Shown here: positions 25,725-55,627 of the stretch, piece after piece
Layout of the letters: the number at the start of each line of letters is the position of its first letter
Numbering within the stretch: the first letter of the stretch is position 1
NCBI RefSeq assembly: GCF_000949255.1
Contig: NZ_JXUW01000002.1
Location: 1-64,000 of the forward strand
Length of the DNA: 64,000 bases
DNA from: Ferrimicrobium acidiphilum DSM 19497
Lineage (GTDB): Bacteria; Actinomycetota; Acidimicrobiia; Acidimicrobiales; Acidimicrobiaceae
Direction of reading: 5' to 3'
The notes under the pieces: model-generated
The model's input: only the letters and a program-made list of their open reading frames with translations
What the model was told of the DNA's origin: nothing
The model's database searches: none
Translations under genes and position numbers: made by a program

Positions 25725-26769
25725 TGGAGCTTGCCGCTTGTCGCCTCTTGCGCTCTACGAATAGATAACCAAGACCTGCGAGACCAACTCCGCCTATTGC
25801 CAAACCAATAGGTAGCGCATCGGTGTGAGAAGCCGGAGGCGAGAGAGGACCGGTTGAGATGGTAATCGGGCTTGGTGGCGTGGTAGTGGTCGTCGGTGGC
25901 GTTGTAGTGGTCGTCGGTGGCGTTGTAGTGGTCGTCGGTGGCGTTGTAGTGGTCTTCGGCGGCGTTGTAGTGGTCTTCGGCGGCGTAGTAGTGGTCGTTG
26001 CTGGTGGCGTTGTCGTCGTCGATGTAGTACATACCGGATTTGTAATCGTGTTCGAGTCGAGTGTCACGGCTCCATTGCGAGCTAACAGTCGGCCGTCAAT
26101 TGTAGCGCTTGTGTTGGCAGCAATTGATGTCAGCGCCAGAATAGTTCCCTGAAAAACTGAGGAGGTTCCGAGTGTTGCAGAGCTGGTAACCTGCCAGAAA
26201 ATATTGCAAGGGTTCGCAGAATTCGTTAGGACTATCTTGCTGGAACTACTAGTGATCAAGGTAGAAGGCAGTTGAAATACAAAAATTGCATTTGGGTTTC
26301 CTTGACCATTCAGAGTGAGAGTTCCGGTGAGGTTGGAGGTCGCGGCGGGAACGGCATAGATCCCTGGTGAGAGTGTTAATCCAGCAAGGTCCGCCACCTC
26401 TGTGGTGGCTGGTGTCATGCCGGCAGCTACGAGATAGGCGTTGGTCGTGGCCGTCTCAGCGGTCACGGCTGCTGAGTTGTTGATATTCGTAGTACCAGCG
26501 ACAGTGCCAGGAGGAAACCCAGTTACTGAGGTGCCAGGTGAGAGGCCGAGATCACCAGCCAGCGTCGTGGCACCGGTGTTGGTGACCGTAGTGGCTGCGA
26601 GGACGGAGTACGCACCAGCGGTCCCTAACTGCACTCCGCTAGTTGAACTGGCGAGTTCGAACTGTGGCGGAGATCGCAAGGAACTCCCCAACACCACAAG
26701 GGTTACACCCAGCGGGATGAGTGGCCAAAGATTTCGTTTTCTAGCTGACGGAACATATTTTGTCTTCAT
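25711..26769 (-). CDS. DUF3494 (ice-binding-like) surface protein with Thr/Pro stalk
   Basis: A 352-residue exported protein. After an N-terminal signal/anchor (NLWPLIPLGVTLVVLGSS), residues about 45-235 form a DUF3494 beta-helix: LGTAGAYSVLAATTVTNTGA, TLAGDLGLSPGTSVTGFPPG, TLTLNGQGNPNAIFVFQL and SVFQGTILALTSIAANTSAT are family hallmarks. Then a stalk of about ten TTTTTPP repeats, then a membrane helix GLAIGGVGLAGLGYLFV and basic tail ERKRRQ. Some members bind ice; many in non-cold organisms probably act as adhesins. No canonical LPxTG is present before the helix. The gene is coupled to the sortase downstream. Confidence 0.88.
   Translation of the reverse strand: MKTKYVPSARKRNLWPLIPLGVTLVVLGSSLRSPPQFELASSTSGVQLGTAGAYSVLAATTVTNTGATTLAGDLGLSPGTSVTGFPPGTVAGTTNINNSAAVTAETATTNAYLVAAGMTPATTEVADLAGLTLSPGIYAVPAATSNLTGTLTLNGQGNPNAIFVFQLPSTLITSSSSKIVLTNSANPCNIFWQVTSSATLGTSSVFQGTILALTSIAANTSATIDGRLLARNGAVTLDSNTITNPVCTTSTTTTPPATTTTTPPKTTTTPPKTTTTPPTTTTTPPTTTTTPPTTTTTPPSPITISTGPLSPPASHTDALPIGLAIGGVGLAGLGYLFVERKRRQAASSNEVA
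25875..26012 (-). repeat. Tandem repeats encoding the Thr/Pro stalk
   Basis: Repeats of about 21 bases (plus-strand unit GGCGTTGTAGTGGTCGTCGGT, with variants TCGG/TTCGG) encode TTTTTPP or TTTTPPK units in the DUF3494 protein. Such an array can change length by slippage without breaking the frame. Confidence 0.85.
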
Positions 26770-48639: not shown

Positions 48640-49164
48640 ATGGCAGGTCGTAAGAAGAAGGTTGCAGAGGAGTCGATGGCGGCACCCACAGACGAGGAAC
48701 TCGATCTGGATGAAGACATCGACGAGGAGCTCGATCTAGATGATGACCTTGAGGTTGACGACGAGATCGACGAGGAGCTCGATCTAGATGACGACCTTGA
48801 CGCTGATGAGCAGACGGACGACGAGATCGTTCTCGATGGAATCGACGGCGTTGAGATTGATGAGTTGCCGTTAGAGGAGGACGACGAAGATGTTGAGGAC
48901 GTTGAGGAGGTTGACGACGCCGATGATGAGGAGGTTGACGACGCCGATGACGATGAGGTGGAGTCAGCGCTAGATGACATCCTGCGTGAGCGTTTTGTGG
49001 TCACTGAGGTTGACGACGAGGAGGAGGTCGATGAGTCTGGTGATACCGTTATCCGGGTCAAGCCACGACAACCTGATGAGTTTGTCTGTCAGTCATGCTT
49101 CCTGGTTAAGAGTATGATACAGCTGGCGGACACTGACAAGATGTTCTGCCGTGACTGTGTCTAG
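48640..49164 (+). CDS. Very acidic DUF4193-like protein with C-terminal zinc finger
   Basis: A 174-residue protein. Residues about 14-110 are dominated by Asp/Glu with repeats DEELDLDDDLEVDDEIDEEL. The C-terminus PDEFVCQSCFLVKSMIQLAD and MFCRDCV is the DUF4193 CxxC-CxxC ribbon found in actinobacteria. ATG at 48640 (an ATG also at 48637) follows AAAGAGGTA. Function unknown; in known DUF4193 proteins the acidic part is shorter. Confidence 0.8.
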   Translation: MAGRKKKVAEESMAAPTDEELDLDEDIDEELDLDDDLEVDDEIDEELDLDDDLDADEQTDDEIVLDGIDGVEIDELPLEEDDEDVEDVEEVDDADDEEVDDADDDEVESALDDILRERFVVTEVDDEEEVDESGDTVIRVKPRQPDEFVCQSCFLVKSMIQLADTDKMFCRDCV

Positions 49165-50624: not shown

Positions 50625-51944
50625 TCAATCTTCGTTGACTTGAGTCTCTTCGGTAGCAGCTGGTTTCTTTGGTCGTGAAGTCTTCGGCACCATCGCTAGT
50701 ATCTCAGGCCGGGGTGGAGGAGGAACCGAGACTCCTGTCAGTTGGGCTAATGCTGGGATACGTCCTGCATTCTCCTTGGCAAACTCCATGAGTTCGGGCG
50801 TTGCGTCGCTCGGGAGGCTCGTAGGTTGTACATGACGCCGGATCGGGCTCTGGGCTACTGCATCTATGAGAACCATCCATCGTTCTGAAGGAGTATCGGC
50901 GCTCATCTCTTCGTTGCAGAGTGTCACCAAGCGCTGGGCAAGTTCCGCAGGTAACTTGGCTGTTGGATCAGGAAGTTTTGCGCTAAGCCGTAGTGCACGC
51001 ACTAAGCGGTTCTCGTCGACCGCCCCCGCGACTTCCTTCTGCCACTTCTCAGTTTCGGTGCTGGCGCGAGCATTTAGCACCTCGGTGAGTGCGTTGGCTA
51101 GTTCTGTGACTTGCTGATTCTTCGCCGATCTATCGGCGGCGGCAAGTATGGAACGTAGATCCTTTAGCGAGATCTCTTGGGCTATCTCATTGGCCGCCTC
51201 GGCTCTGTCGAGCCATGTAGCTACACGAATCTTTGGTAGGATGCCTTCGGCAATTTTGAGGGTTGCATCGACAGGTGTCTCGGGCTCTCCAGCCGCAGCG
51301 GCTCGTGCATTTTGTTCTGATATGGCGGCGCGAACTGCAGGCAGCCCTCCCTTCATGAGAGCCTCGCCGATCGGACGATGCTCGGGCAGTAGCGATTCGA
51401 GCACCTCCCTGCGATGGGTCTCCTTTGGGTGCAGGCGCTTAGCCTCAGACCTACCCGATCGACGTCGATCATTTGAAGTAGGTCGACCCCGAGCACCCCT
51501 ATCCTGGGATGCCGGTCGGTCTCGATCGTTCGTGCGTTGGGGGCGTTCGCCATCTGCTTGACGATTGCGCGGCCCCTGACCCTGTCGACCTCTGTCCGTG
51601 CCTTGACGTGGGCGTTCGCCGCCTTCACGAGAGCCGCGACCAGGACGGTCGGGACGACCCTTTTTGCGAACCGATATCGTCACTAACGGATCATCTGAAG
51701 ACGATCCAATGATCTCGATTCTGTTATCGGCTGACTTCTTCGGTGCCGGAGCTGTGACGGCAAGGACTTCGATGCCATCGAGCCCCATGGACACCTCCGC
51801 GCGAGCTACGTCGCCGATTTTCGCCCCGTCGTAGAGGAGCTCAGCAGCGACAGTTCCCTTGGGACTGCGAGCGCCTGCCGCTCGCCAAGTCCAGCTGTCA
51901 TTGTTGAGCTGACTCGTCAGCTCAATCTCTAGTTTGGTTGCCAT
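50625..51944 (-). CDS. Arg/Gly-rich protein with helical C-terminal domain, unknown
   Basis: A 439-residue protein. Residues 1-95 look beta-rich (MATKLEIELTSQLNNDSWTW, GDVARAEVSMGLDGIEVLAV). About 95-180 is a basic disordered stretch rich in RG/RQ/RP (RPGRGSREGGERPRQGTDRG), as in RNA-binding proteins. The rest is alpha-helical with SLKDLRSILAAADRSAKNQQ. ATG 51944 has GGTGGAGG upstream; an extension to 51998 is unlikely. Head of the minus-strand operon with GNAT and Nudix. Probably RNA- or nucleoid-associated, inferred from composition only. Confidence 0.6.
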   Translation of the reverse strand: MATKLEIELTSQLNNDSWTWRAAGARSPKGTVAAELLYDGAKIGDVARAEVSMGLDGIEVLAVTAPAPKKSADNRIEIIGSSSDDPLVTISVRKKGRPDRPGRGSREGGERPRQGTDRGRQGQGPRNRQADGERPQRTNDRDRPASQDRGARGRPTSNDRRRSGRSEAKRLHPKETHRREVLESLLPEHRPIGEALMKGGLPAVRAAISEQNARAAAAGEPETPVDATLKIAEGILPKIRVATWLDRAEAANEIAQEISLKDLRSILAAADRSAKNQQVTELANALTEVLNARASTETEKWQKEVAGAVDENRLVRALRLSAKLPDPTAKLPAELAQRLVTLCNEEMSADTPSERWMVLIDAVAQSPIRRHVQPTSLPSDATPELMEFAKENAGRIPALAQLTGVSVPPPPRPEILAMVPKTSRPKKPAATEETQVNED

Positions 51945-52050
51945 GAGCCTCCACCTGCCACCTGTATCGATTTGTGGCGATCGTCGGTTGATCGCCACCG
52001 GGCAATACTAGTCGGACGGTCGATCGGGGTCAGCAGCTAGCCTTGCCGGA

Positions 52051-52972: not shown

Positions 52973-53647
52973 TTACCACCGTGGGCGATCGTCTTCATCG
53001 ACATCACCTTGGTTGATCGACAGGCCGTTCTCCAACAAAAATGTTCGAAGATCGAGATTATCGAGGAATTGATGGGTACGATAGCCAGCCTTGCTAGCCG
53101 CGTAGACATTATCGAGGCGGTCATCTATAAATAGCGTGCGAGCTGGGGTCAATGAGAAGGTGGTAGTCAGCGTCTGATAGAACGCAGGCGAGGGTTTGGT
53201 GACACCGATCAGGCCAGATACAAGGGCGCCGTCAAACGATCGGAGGAATGGGAAGGTGTCAAGAGCTAGTTTCCAGTACTCACCCGGCCAGTTCGTGGCT
53301 GCGTAGGTGGGAACGCCTGATAGCTGGATCTCTGCCAGCATCTGGACCAGTGCGGAGCTGGGCGCCCCCCACATCTCGTCGAAACGGTCGTTGTAGGCTT
53401 GAATTAGCGAACGCAGCGGTCGATGTTTGGCCATCAATGGTTCGGCCGCTGTTGTGAACGACACTCCGGCATCGAGTTGGAGGTGCCATGTTGGCGTGCA
53501 GATGGTCTCGAGGAAATGCTCCATCACAGCCTCACTAGGGATGAGCTTACGATATAAGTTTCTCGGATTCCATTCGATAAAGACGCCGCCAAGATCGAAT
53601 ACGATCGCCTCTGTGCTCGCGGCGGGCGTTGTGGAGTCGGCTCTCAC
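52973..53647 (-). CDS. HAD superfamily hydrolase (HAD-IA)
   Basis: A 224-residue phosphatase-like protein: motif I EAIVFDLGGVFIEWNPRNLY, motif II YAATNWPG, motif III GLIGVTKPSPAFY and motif IV TLFIDDRLDNVYAASKAG. The DLGGVxxxWxPRxLY start is typical of the YihX-type subgroup. GTG start with no clear ribosome site, so it may be leaderless. Substrate unknown. Confidence 0.85.
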   Translation of the reverse strand: MRADSTTPAASTEAIVFDLGGVFIEWNPRNLYRKLIPSEAVMEHFLETICTPTWHLQLDAGVSFTTAAEPLMAKHRPLRSLIQAYNDRFDEMWGAPSSALVQMLAEIQLSGVPTYAATNWPGEYWKLALDTFPFLRSFDGALVSGLIGVTKPSPAFYQTLTTTFSLTPARTLFIDDRLDNVYAASKAGYRTHQFLDNLDLRTFLLENGLSINQGDVDEDDRPRW

Positions 53648-53825
53648 TCGAGAGAGTATAGTTCGATGCGTTGCTCTCCAAAAAGATGGCGACTCCTGTG
53701 GCCTATGGCATATCGATGCGGCAGTTTACCATAACAGTGGTGCAATCTGCGTCTGTAAGCGCGAGCGGATTGCACGAGTTACCTACTGTTGGGTACCAGG
53801 GTTGAGGTGATAGTCAAGAGTATGG

Positions 53826-54650
53826 TTAGAGAACGTTGTGTAGTAATGTCGTGAGCGCTATAACCGGGTACTGGATCAAATTGCTTGATACCGTCAACGT
53901 TGGTAAGGTTCCAGAGAGTCCTCCAACGGAGTAGTAACCCGACCAGTGTTCGCTTAGCCCGGCGTCCACGAGGCCAGCGCGAGTTGGTCGACACCATGTC
54001 ACGCGATTGCTTCCGGGCGGAGGAGTACCTTTGGGTGAGTTGGAGCTGAACTGCCACGAGCTCCATGACCAGGCGCGGATTGTGAGCGGTCCATCGTTGG
54101 TGGAGACTGTTGTCGTGACTCCAGTGGTGGTTGAGGTAATCAGCTCCATGGGTACGTTGATGACGCCAAGCTGCGGGTGCGCGCTGATCTTGGGTGTGGG
54201 TAGACGGTCGTTGACCACCTGCTCCCAGATAACCTCTATGTTCAGAGTGCCCACCGGATTTGCATCGCACCTTGGGTAGACGCTCAAGCGAGCCCACATC
54301 GCCTGAGCCCACGACAGCTCAGCTTGGTACAGAGTCTTCGATGAAGGTTCCACGGTCCGATAGCTGACGCAACTCATAGCCAGCGAGGCTCCGGTGTGGG
54401 TGATGAGTGACGGGATGAAGACCGGGCCGATCTGTCCTCCGGTTGTGCCATCTGTACCATGTGATCCACGAAGTACTATGTGATAGGTCGAGCCTGAACC
54501 ACCGCCATTGACGATCACACTGGTGAGTTGGTCTGGCCAGCGAACATTGACGGATATCACCATGGCAAGTATCGCTGCACCGAACAGTATCGCTGCACCG
54601 AACAGTATCGCTGCACCGAACAATGGCGGTTGACGGAAGCTTTGACGCAT
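53826..54650 (-). CDS. Exported protein with repeated hydrophobic N-terminus, unknown
   Basis: A 274-residue protein whose N-terminus reads MRQSFRQPPLFGAAILFGAA then ILFGAAILAMVISVNVRWPD: one hydrophobic helix built from three copies of LFGAAI. The rest is Thr/Ser-rich and beta-like, with SYRTVEPSSKTLYQAELSWA and WSWSSWQFSSNSPKGTPPPG. Probably an anchored extracytoplasmic protein. No family recognised. The tandem DNA repeat is listed separately. Confidence 0.6.
   Translation of the reverse strand: MRQSFRQPPLFGAAILFGAAILFGAAILAMVISVNVRWPDQLTSVIVNGGGSGSTYHIVLRGSHGTDGTTGGQIGPVFIPSLITHTGASLAMSCVSYRTVEPSSKTLYQAELSWAQAMWARLSVYPRCDANPVGTLNIEVIWEQVVNDRLPTPKISAHPQLGVINVPMELITSTTTGVTTTVSTNDGPLTIRAWSWSSWQFSSNSPKGTPPPGSNRVTWCRPTRAGLVDAGLSEHWSGYYSVGGLSGTLPTLTVSSNLIQYPVIALTTLLHNVL
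54568..54621 (-). repeat. Three perfect 18-bp tandem repeats in a membrane segment
   Basis: AGTATCGCTGCACCGAAC occurs three times without a mismatch at 54568-54585, 54586-54603 and 54604-54621. Each copy encodes six hydrophobic residues of the N-terminal helix, so gain or loss of copies would change the helix length by six residues while keeping the frame. Confidence 0.95.
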
Positions 54651-54853
54651 TGGCCCTCCTTGGCTGTATGCACGACCTGAAGAGTCACGCCATTAGCAAA
54701 TGATGCCAATGACAGGCAATTCGGTCGTTATATCTCTGCACTCGCTTTTTGCGAACTAGGTGGCTCATCCATGAACCACAACCGAGGGTATCGCAATTAA
54801 GTCAGCTGATCAAGCCACCAAGAATCAAGCTGACACCAGGGCTAGTGGGCCTG

Positions 54854-55627
54854 TTAGGCACCAAAGGCGTGGTAGCCGCCATCTACGTGTATTAACTCGC
54901 CGGTAGTCATCGGGAAAAAGTCTGAGAGTAGCGCGACGACACTGCGCGCAACTGGCACCGCGTCTTCGGGATCCCAACCCAGTGGAGAGCGATCTCCCCA
55001 GTTGTCTTGGAACATCTTGAAGGCCTCAATCGACTTGGCGGCGATTGTTCTGATGGGTCCCGCTGAAACTAGATTAACTCTGATCTGGGAGTCACCAAGT
55101 TCGCGAGCAAGATATCGGCTCAGTGACTCGAGACCGGCTTTGGCCACTCCCATCCAGTTGTAGCCTGGCCATGCCACGGTTGCGTCAAAGTCAAGACCGA
55201 CCACGGATGCGCCTTGTGCGGCTGCAAGAAGGGGGCGAAAAGCTCTGGCGAGTTCGGCTAATGAGTAGGCAGAGACCTGAATAGCGGTGGCGACGTCCTC
55301 CCAGGGTGCCTCCAGCATGGGCTTGTCGAGACAGCTGGGCGGGGCATAACCGATCGCATGGACGATACCATCTAGATGGTCCCAGGTGGTCTGGACCTCT
55401 GATGCCGCTTGGTCAACCGATGCTGGGTCGGCAGCGTCTAGCTCTATCACCCTAACGTCTGAACCCAACTTGGTAGCGACTCGGCGTGTAATTGATAACC
55501 CTCGCCCGAAACCGGTGAGTATGGTATCGGCGCCTTCATCACGCGCGACGCGCGCTATGTGATAGGCGATCGATGAGGTGTTGAGAACACCGGTGATCAG
55601 AAGCTGCTTGTCGTCTAGGATGCCCAT
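54854..55627 (-). CDS. fabI: Enoyl-[acyl-carrier-protein] reductase, InhA/FabI type
   Basis: A 257-residue SDR enzyme of fatty-acid elongation. N-terminus MGILDDKQLLITGVLNTSSI matches InhA; the catalytic region YNWMGVAKAGLESLSRYLAR has Tyr and Lys at Y-x6-K. VHAIGYAPPSCL and GPIRTIAAKSIEAFKMFQDN complete the NADH and substrate loops. It reduces the trans-2-enoyl bond with NAD(P)H. GGGAGAGGG lies upstream of the ATG. Monocistronic, divergent from npdG. Confidence 0.92.
   Translation of the reverse strand: MGILDDKQLLITGVLNTSSIAYHIARVARDEGADTILTGFGRGLSITRRVATKLGSDVRVIELDAADPASVDQAASEVQTTWDHLDGIVHAIGYAPPSCLDKPMLEAPWEDVATAIQVSAYSLAELARAFRPLLAAAQGASVVGLDFDATVAWPGYNWMGVAKAGLESLSRYLARELGDSQIRVNLVSAGPIRTIAAKSIEAFKMFQDNWGDRSPLGWDPEDAVPVARSVVALLSDFFPMTTGELIHVDGGYHAFGA

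Follow-up and report, generated by a model that had tools for sequence, protein, structure and literature searches.

A tandem repeat and the length of the N-terminal helix in a probably exported protein of Ferrimicrobium acidiphilum

Results

The window, a 64,000-nucleotide stretch of the genome of Ferrimicrobium acidiphilum, an iron-oxidising, acid-loving bacterium, carries on its minus strand a gene (53826-54650) that starts with ATG and encodes a protein of 274 amino acids that, from its sequence, is probably exported or anchored. The Shine-Dalgarno-like sequence AAGGAGGG lies directly upstream of the start codon (54654-54661, minus strand), and the upstream strings of all seven genus orthologues (L002-L008) have it at this position. 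A search of 53600-55000 for promoter and terminator consensus sequences found none. Further upstream on the same strand, across a gap of 203 bp, is a fabI-like enoyl-ACP reductase gene (54854-55627; Pfam PF13561, E 2.5e-69, and tblastn), and fabI is also the same-strand upstream neighbour at 12 of the 19 other homologous loci (L003-L021). It is convergent at two loci, those of the distant homologues L018 and L019, unlike the same-strand order elsewhere, and was unseen at five: L007, L013 and L015 start where their contigs do, and in L016 and L021 the short upstream stretch contains none. A HAD-like hydrolase gene lies downstream, again on the minus strand (52973-53647), and is present at four of the six genus-mate loci. 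In the sister species, which is the closest relative, the HAD-like gene is interrupted (L022:2052-2956) by 133 extra bases that include an in-frame stop between two matching blocks. In the window gene the matches of the two blocks share 9 bases, a trace that might be left by insertion of a small element with target duplication.

By sequence comparison the 274-residue coding sequence is conserved. Orthologues are present in seven of seven genus genomes, and the gene was tallied in 28 of 60 genomes of wider relatives, a count that includes the window's own copy and weak matches. Between the window species and its sister, dN/dS was 0.13 after codon 30 and 0.57 (12 differences) within the first 30 codons. 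Cys94 and Cys128 are invariant across 14 aligned homologues, which would fit a putative extracytoplasmic disulphide. The protein had no match in Pfam, and none of the 14 homologues had one in Pfam or NCBIfam. A solved relative was sought, and the one profile match, to an scFv, was not significant (E 0.17); an AlphaFold2 model built from two sequences had a mean pLDDT of 32.8 and was set aside.

Within this gene (minus strand), a tandem array at 54568-54622 repeats an 18-bp unit exactly, in 3.06 copies, and encodes (LFGAAI)x3, residues 10-27 of the protein. The initial annotation had described three exact 18-bp copies encoding LFGAAI units within the N-terminal helix of an exported protein, and had proposed that each copy gained or lost would change the helix by six residues. 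TRF confirmed the copies (period 18, 3.1 copies, 100% matches, score 110, 55 bp in total) to within one base of where they had been placed, the minus-strand reading frame yielded the predicted units, and the evidence likewise supported that the copies are in frame, contribute six residues each and lie in the N-terminal helix of what is probably an exported protein. The array is identical to itself at lag 18 over 37 bases; in 100 dinucleotide-preserving shuffles of the window the longest such run was 9-14 bases at any lag from 6 to 60, and the array is therefore far beyond chance. The unit is a multiple of three, the gene is conserved and translated, and the copy number differs among lineages, as is characteristic of an in-frame coding minisatellite.

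Exact arrays were surveyed in 863,493 sampled bases of the same genome, in which a simple caller identified 859 ORFs of at least 80 amino acids. This survey returned 28 arrays, 21 of them within called ORFs, and the LFGAAI array was the only one of the 21 situated in an N-terminal hydrophobic segment. The mean hydropathy was negative in 16 of the remaining 20, and two (L068 and L081) are short hydrophobic repeats located well inside their proteins. The window holds a stronger array at 25874-26021 (lag run of 51 at 25883; 21-bp unit, about seven copies), which encodes Thr/Pro-rich repeats in a 352-residue minus-strand ORF, and overlapping acidic (Asp/Glu) coding repeats with periods of 9-48 bp at 48691-48959, in a 175-residue ORF.

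Two possible sources of the array were considered. A mobile or dispersed repeat was ruled out, as all three matches to the 18-bp unit in its own genome (at most two mismatches) are the array itself; single near-matches occur elsewhere in the relative genomes G003 and G005. A DNA hairpin as the cause of duplication was unsupported on any of the four strands folded, with z-scores of +0.84 and -1.85 for the window and -0.46 and -0.96 for the sister; the value of -1.85, for the minus strand, is borderline, with 10 of 200 shuffles folding equally well.

The history of the helix was reconstructed by comparison with the other members of the genus. Counted by eye on the sequences, the window protein has 41 residues ahead of a conserved LT block and the sister has 34; the other five genus members (L004-L008) have 29, 29, 29, 28 and 27. 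The sister protein (L003 and L022, which are the same contig) is 88% identical to the window protein and is without the LFGAAI array. It has an array of its own, 2.1 copies of the 15-bp unit CATGGTTGCATCTGT (100% match), which encodes MVASV x2 in the same helix, eight residues further on, beginning at residue 18. When each array was collapsed to one copy, both genes were 789 nt long and aligned without gaps at 90.0% identity, and both proteins had 29 residues ahead of LT. Tandem repeats within the first 150 nt were found in two of the 16 homologues examined, namely the window gene and its sister. There are three LFGAAI copies in the window protein and one homologous unit in the sister, and the lengths of the other five species fit one. 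Because the collapsed genes are equal in length and align without gaps, and because only these two of the 16 carry such repeats, the sequence comparison shows that the single copy was ancestral and that the helix was lengthened twice, independently, in two lineages, with the second duplication being one observation from a draft genome described as a MAG. The copy number varies between species, and not demonstrably inside one species.

The background rate of such changes was estimated from 86 ortholog pairs between the window species and its sister (28,966 amino acids; pairs below 75% identity or 60% coverage were dropped), an analysis that supersedes an earlier run of 43 pairs with a stricter hydrophobic cut-off and no subject-coverage filter. 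Only eight internal gaps were found over the 86 pairs, one of which is the sister's interrupted HAD gene. Among the 23 pairs with hydrophobic N-termini, a gap within the first 43 residues occurred once, in the 274-residue gene, which scores as a single net gap of seven residues despite its two arrays; free end gaps in these alignments may hide start-site differences. The indel comparison hints at something special about the helix of this protein, read with the facts that the gene was chosen for having an array and that zero of 22 is a small sample, one that still permits about 0.14 events per signal helix (3/22). A further repeat-length difference, an extra (SSKN)x3 in the sister (L063:738-1415 against L030:10098-10739), lies at residue 44, after a hydrophobic N-terminus. 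The sister also has a 27-bp array of 2.7 copies (L022:4363-4436) in a polar stretch rich in Arg, Thr, Asn and Asp; by eye, this stretch is the counterpart of the window ORF at 50625-51998.

The N-terminus of the window protein begins with a charged segment, MRQSFRQPP, and this positive n-region (R2 and R6) is followed by a hydrophobic core, an order shared with Sec signal peptides and N-terminal signal anchors as they are outlined in the available part of PMC8584900. The core is an uninterrupted hydrophobic run of 25 residues (10-34), LFGAAILFGAAILFGAAILAMVISV, encoded at 54549-54623 (minus strand). With one, two or three LFGAAI copies the run would be 13, 19 or 25 residues long, and the best 19-residue Kyte-Doolittle mean would be 1.37, 2.54 or 2.69. 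The helix was measured in 16 of 20 homologues (L013, L018, L019 and L021, in which the start is unclear, were excluded, and the sister was taken as L022) with generic hydrophobicity measures, the run being a generous measure that also counts G, S, T, W and Y. The window protein was the highest of the 16 by both; the others had runs of 11-22 residues and means of 1.33-2.36. The collapsed forms of the window (1.37) and sister (1.05) proteins fall below all five genus mates (1.65-2.36), and the collapsed window value lies within the range of the wider family (1.33-2.03).

The cores of Sec signal peptides usually comprise 7-15 residues and do not exceed 18-20, and longer cores are excluded from cleavage, according to the portion of PMC8584900 that is available, in which this limit is one of the eukaryotic signal peptidase. 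The core of the window protein, at 25 residues, is longer than that of a cleaved Sec signal peptide (it would be 13 if collapsed to one copy), and with a mean of 2.69 the helix is long enough to span the membrane as an N-terminal signal anchor. The run is 15-20 residues in the single-copy genus mates and reaches 22 in the wider homologue L012, which makes the crossing of the 18-20 limit less sharp than the series 13, 19 and 25 suggests. The protein has no lipobox, its first Cys being residue 94. The helix is rich in Gly and Ala, and was weighed beside the signal-anchor-release domains described in the accessible text of PMC8385771.

Cleavage sites of the AxA type (A or V at -3, A at -1) were sought by scanning cuts after residues 15-47, and the window protein has none. 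All five genus mates have such a site at residues 15-24, at or close to the helix end. The sister has one well past the helix, AVA↓K at residue 40, and three of nine wider homologues (L009, L014 and L016) are without any; the missing site is thus weak evidence. Cutting could still occur at VIS↓V in the window protein and at VAS↓V in the sister, and VIS↓V fits the relaxed -3/-1 rule for small residues.

Discussion

The reading that we favour, by a modest degree, is that in-frame tandem duplication lengthened a Sec-type hydrophobic core, and that the three-copy protein is likely to be anchored by its N-terminus. We infer anchoring because the hydrophobic core is long and is without an AxA-type site, which five genus mates possess. 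The ancestral gene had one copy and a core of 13 residues, as is usual for signal peptides that can be cleaved. Two further copies of the 18-bp unit gave the F. acidiphilum lineage its core of 25 residues, and a single duplication of a neighbouring 15-bp unit gave the sister lineage 18. Both species lack the helix-end Ala-x-Ala type site found in the five genus mates. On entering the Sec translocon, the helix would be too long for efficient cutting by signal peptidase I, and would remain as an N-terminal membrane anchor with the Cys-containing domain held outside. Export of the protein is, on this sequence evidence, probable, and loss of cleavage is likely; longer helices may have been favoured rather than merely tolerated. 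The lengthening may have compensated for the weakness of the core and the loss of the cleavage site, or may have come after them.

A serious rival to this anchor reading is that the lengthening was simply tolerated, and we regard this as a substantial possibility, albeit one short of even. Under this explanation duplications arise at random, signal cores are among the few coding places that can bear six or 12 extra hydrophobic residues, either the helix continues to be cleaved or helix length is irrelevant, and nothing is tuned. The elevated dN/dS of the first 30 codons relative to the remainder of the gene is fitted by relaxed constraint, and the lengthening may therefore be neutral. The hydrophobic run already varies among the single-copy genus mates, and no strong DNA hairpin marks the site as special. 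Against neutrality, none of the 22 other hydrophobic N-termini has a gap in its first 43 residues, whereas this one gene shows two events.

It is improbable, in our estimation, that the helix is being rapidly remade, such that the sister species lengthened their helices independently after the helix-end cleavage site was lost, and copy number still varies within populations and determines, with no frameshift, how much of the protein is released and how much is anchored. We consider slightly less probable still the proposal in the initial annotation of a contingency locus, in which changes of copy number within a population would decide, with no frameshift, whether the protein is secreted, anchored or exported poorly. 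Such a locus would draw on the three perfect copies, each adding six residues in the 13, 19 and 25 series, and on human precedents in CNDP1 (PMC13116943) and APOB (PMC5737435), as far as the available parts of these papers describe them. Evolutionary lengthening is nevertheless better supported than a contingency switch. Three 18-bp units are usually far stabler than the extended arrays of short units that phase-variable genes carry. Since 18 is divisible by three and no part of the array falls outside the reading frame, the array is not a switch of the frameshift or promoter-spacing kind. The strain YE2023 is described as F. acidiphilum, but its G+C content of 58.16% (PMC11636282) differs from the 55.3% of T23 (PMC4417700), and so it may be another species.

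An assembly artefact, by which the true copy number would differ, is very improbable, since although the genome is a draft assembled from 454 and Illumina reads, the 55-bp array is shorter than ordinary reads, the reported coverage is 145-fold for Illumina and 12.2-fold for 454 (PMC4417700), and the assembled product keeps its reading frame.

The closest parallels lie in human genes. In CNDP1, an in-frame tandem repeat likewise lies in the hydrophobic part of a signal peptide and its number affects the efficiency of carnosinase secretion, as stated in the available text of PMC13116943. That repeat is a (CTG)n leucine repeat with a 3-bp unit that is polymorphic, functionally tested and involved in eukaryotic ER targeting, whereas the unit here is 18 bp and is known from the sequence of one genome alone. 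APOB has a comparable in-frame length change in the hydrophobic part of its signal peptide, which the accessible portion of PMC5737435 gives as 27 or 24 residues (Leu-Ala-Leu); this is a known polymorphism, unlike the 12 additional residues in a single genome here. The opa (P.II) genes of Neisseria provide a bacterial example of tandem repeats in the signal-peptide code of a surface protein (PMC3899988, from the part available), but their 5-bp CTCTT units switch correct translation on and off, and 18-bp units cannot shift the frame. The open-access titles and beginnings of abstracts surveyed yielded no bacterial in-frame repeat in a signal helix, which is no proof of absence. The window array adds to the coding minisatellites known from signal sequences, and is unusual in that a second, convergent event accompanies it.

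If the helix neither anchors the protein nor varies in copy number, the array would be a commonplace coding minisatellite at a site that tolerates it. If the helix is being remade, it would parallel, in a bacterium, the signal-peptide repeat of CNDP1, and if copy number varies among isolates, it would represent an in-frame, graded tuning of protein location in a bacterium. If the three-copy protein is anchored, these species would offer a natural experiment in the conversion of a signal peptide into a membrane anchor, in which the ancestral length can be inferred, tandem duplication has occurred twice independently and relatives with a single copy are available.
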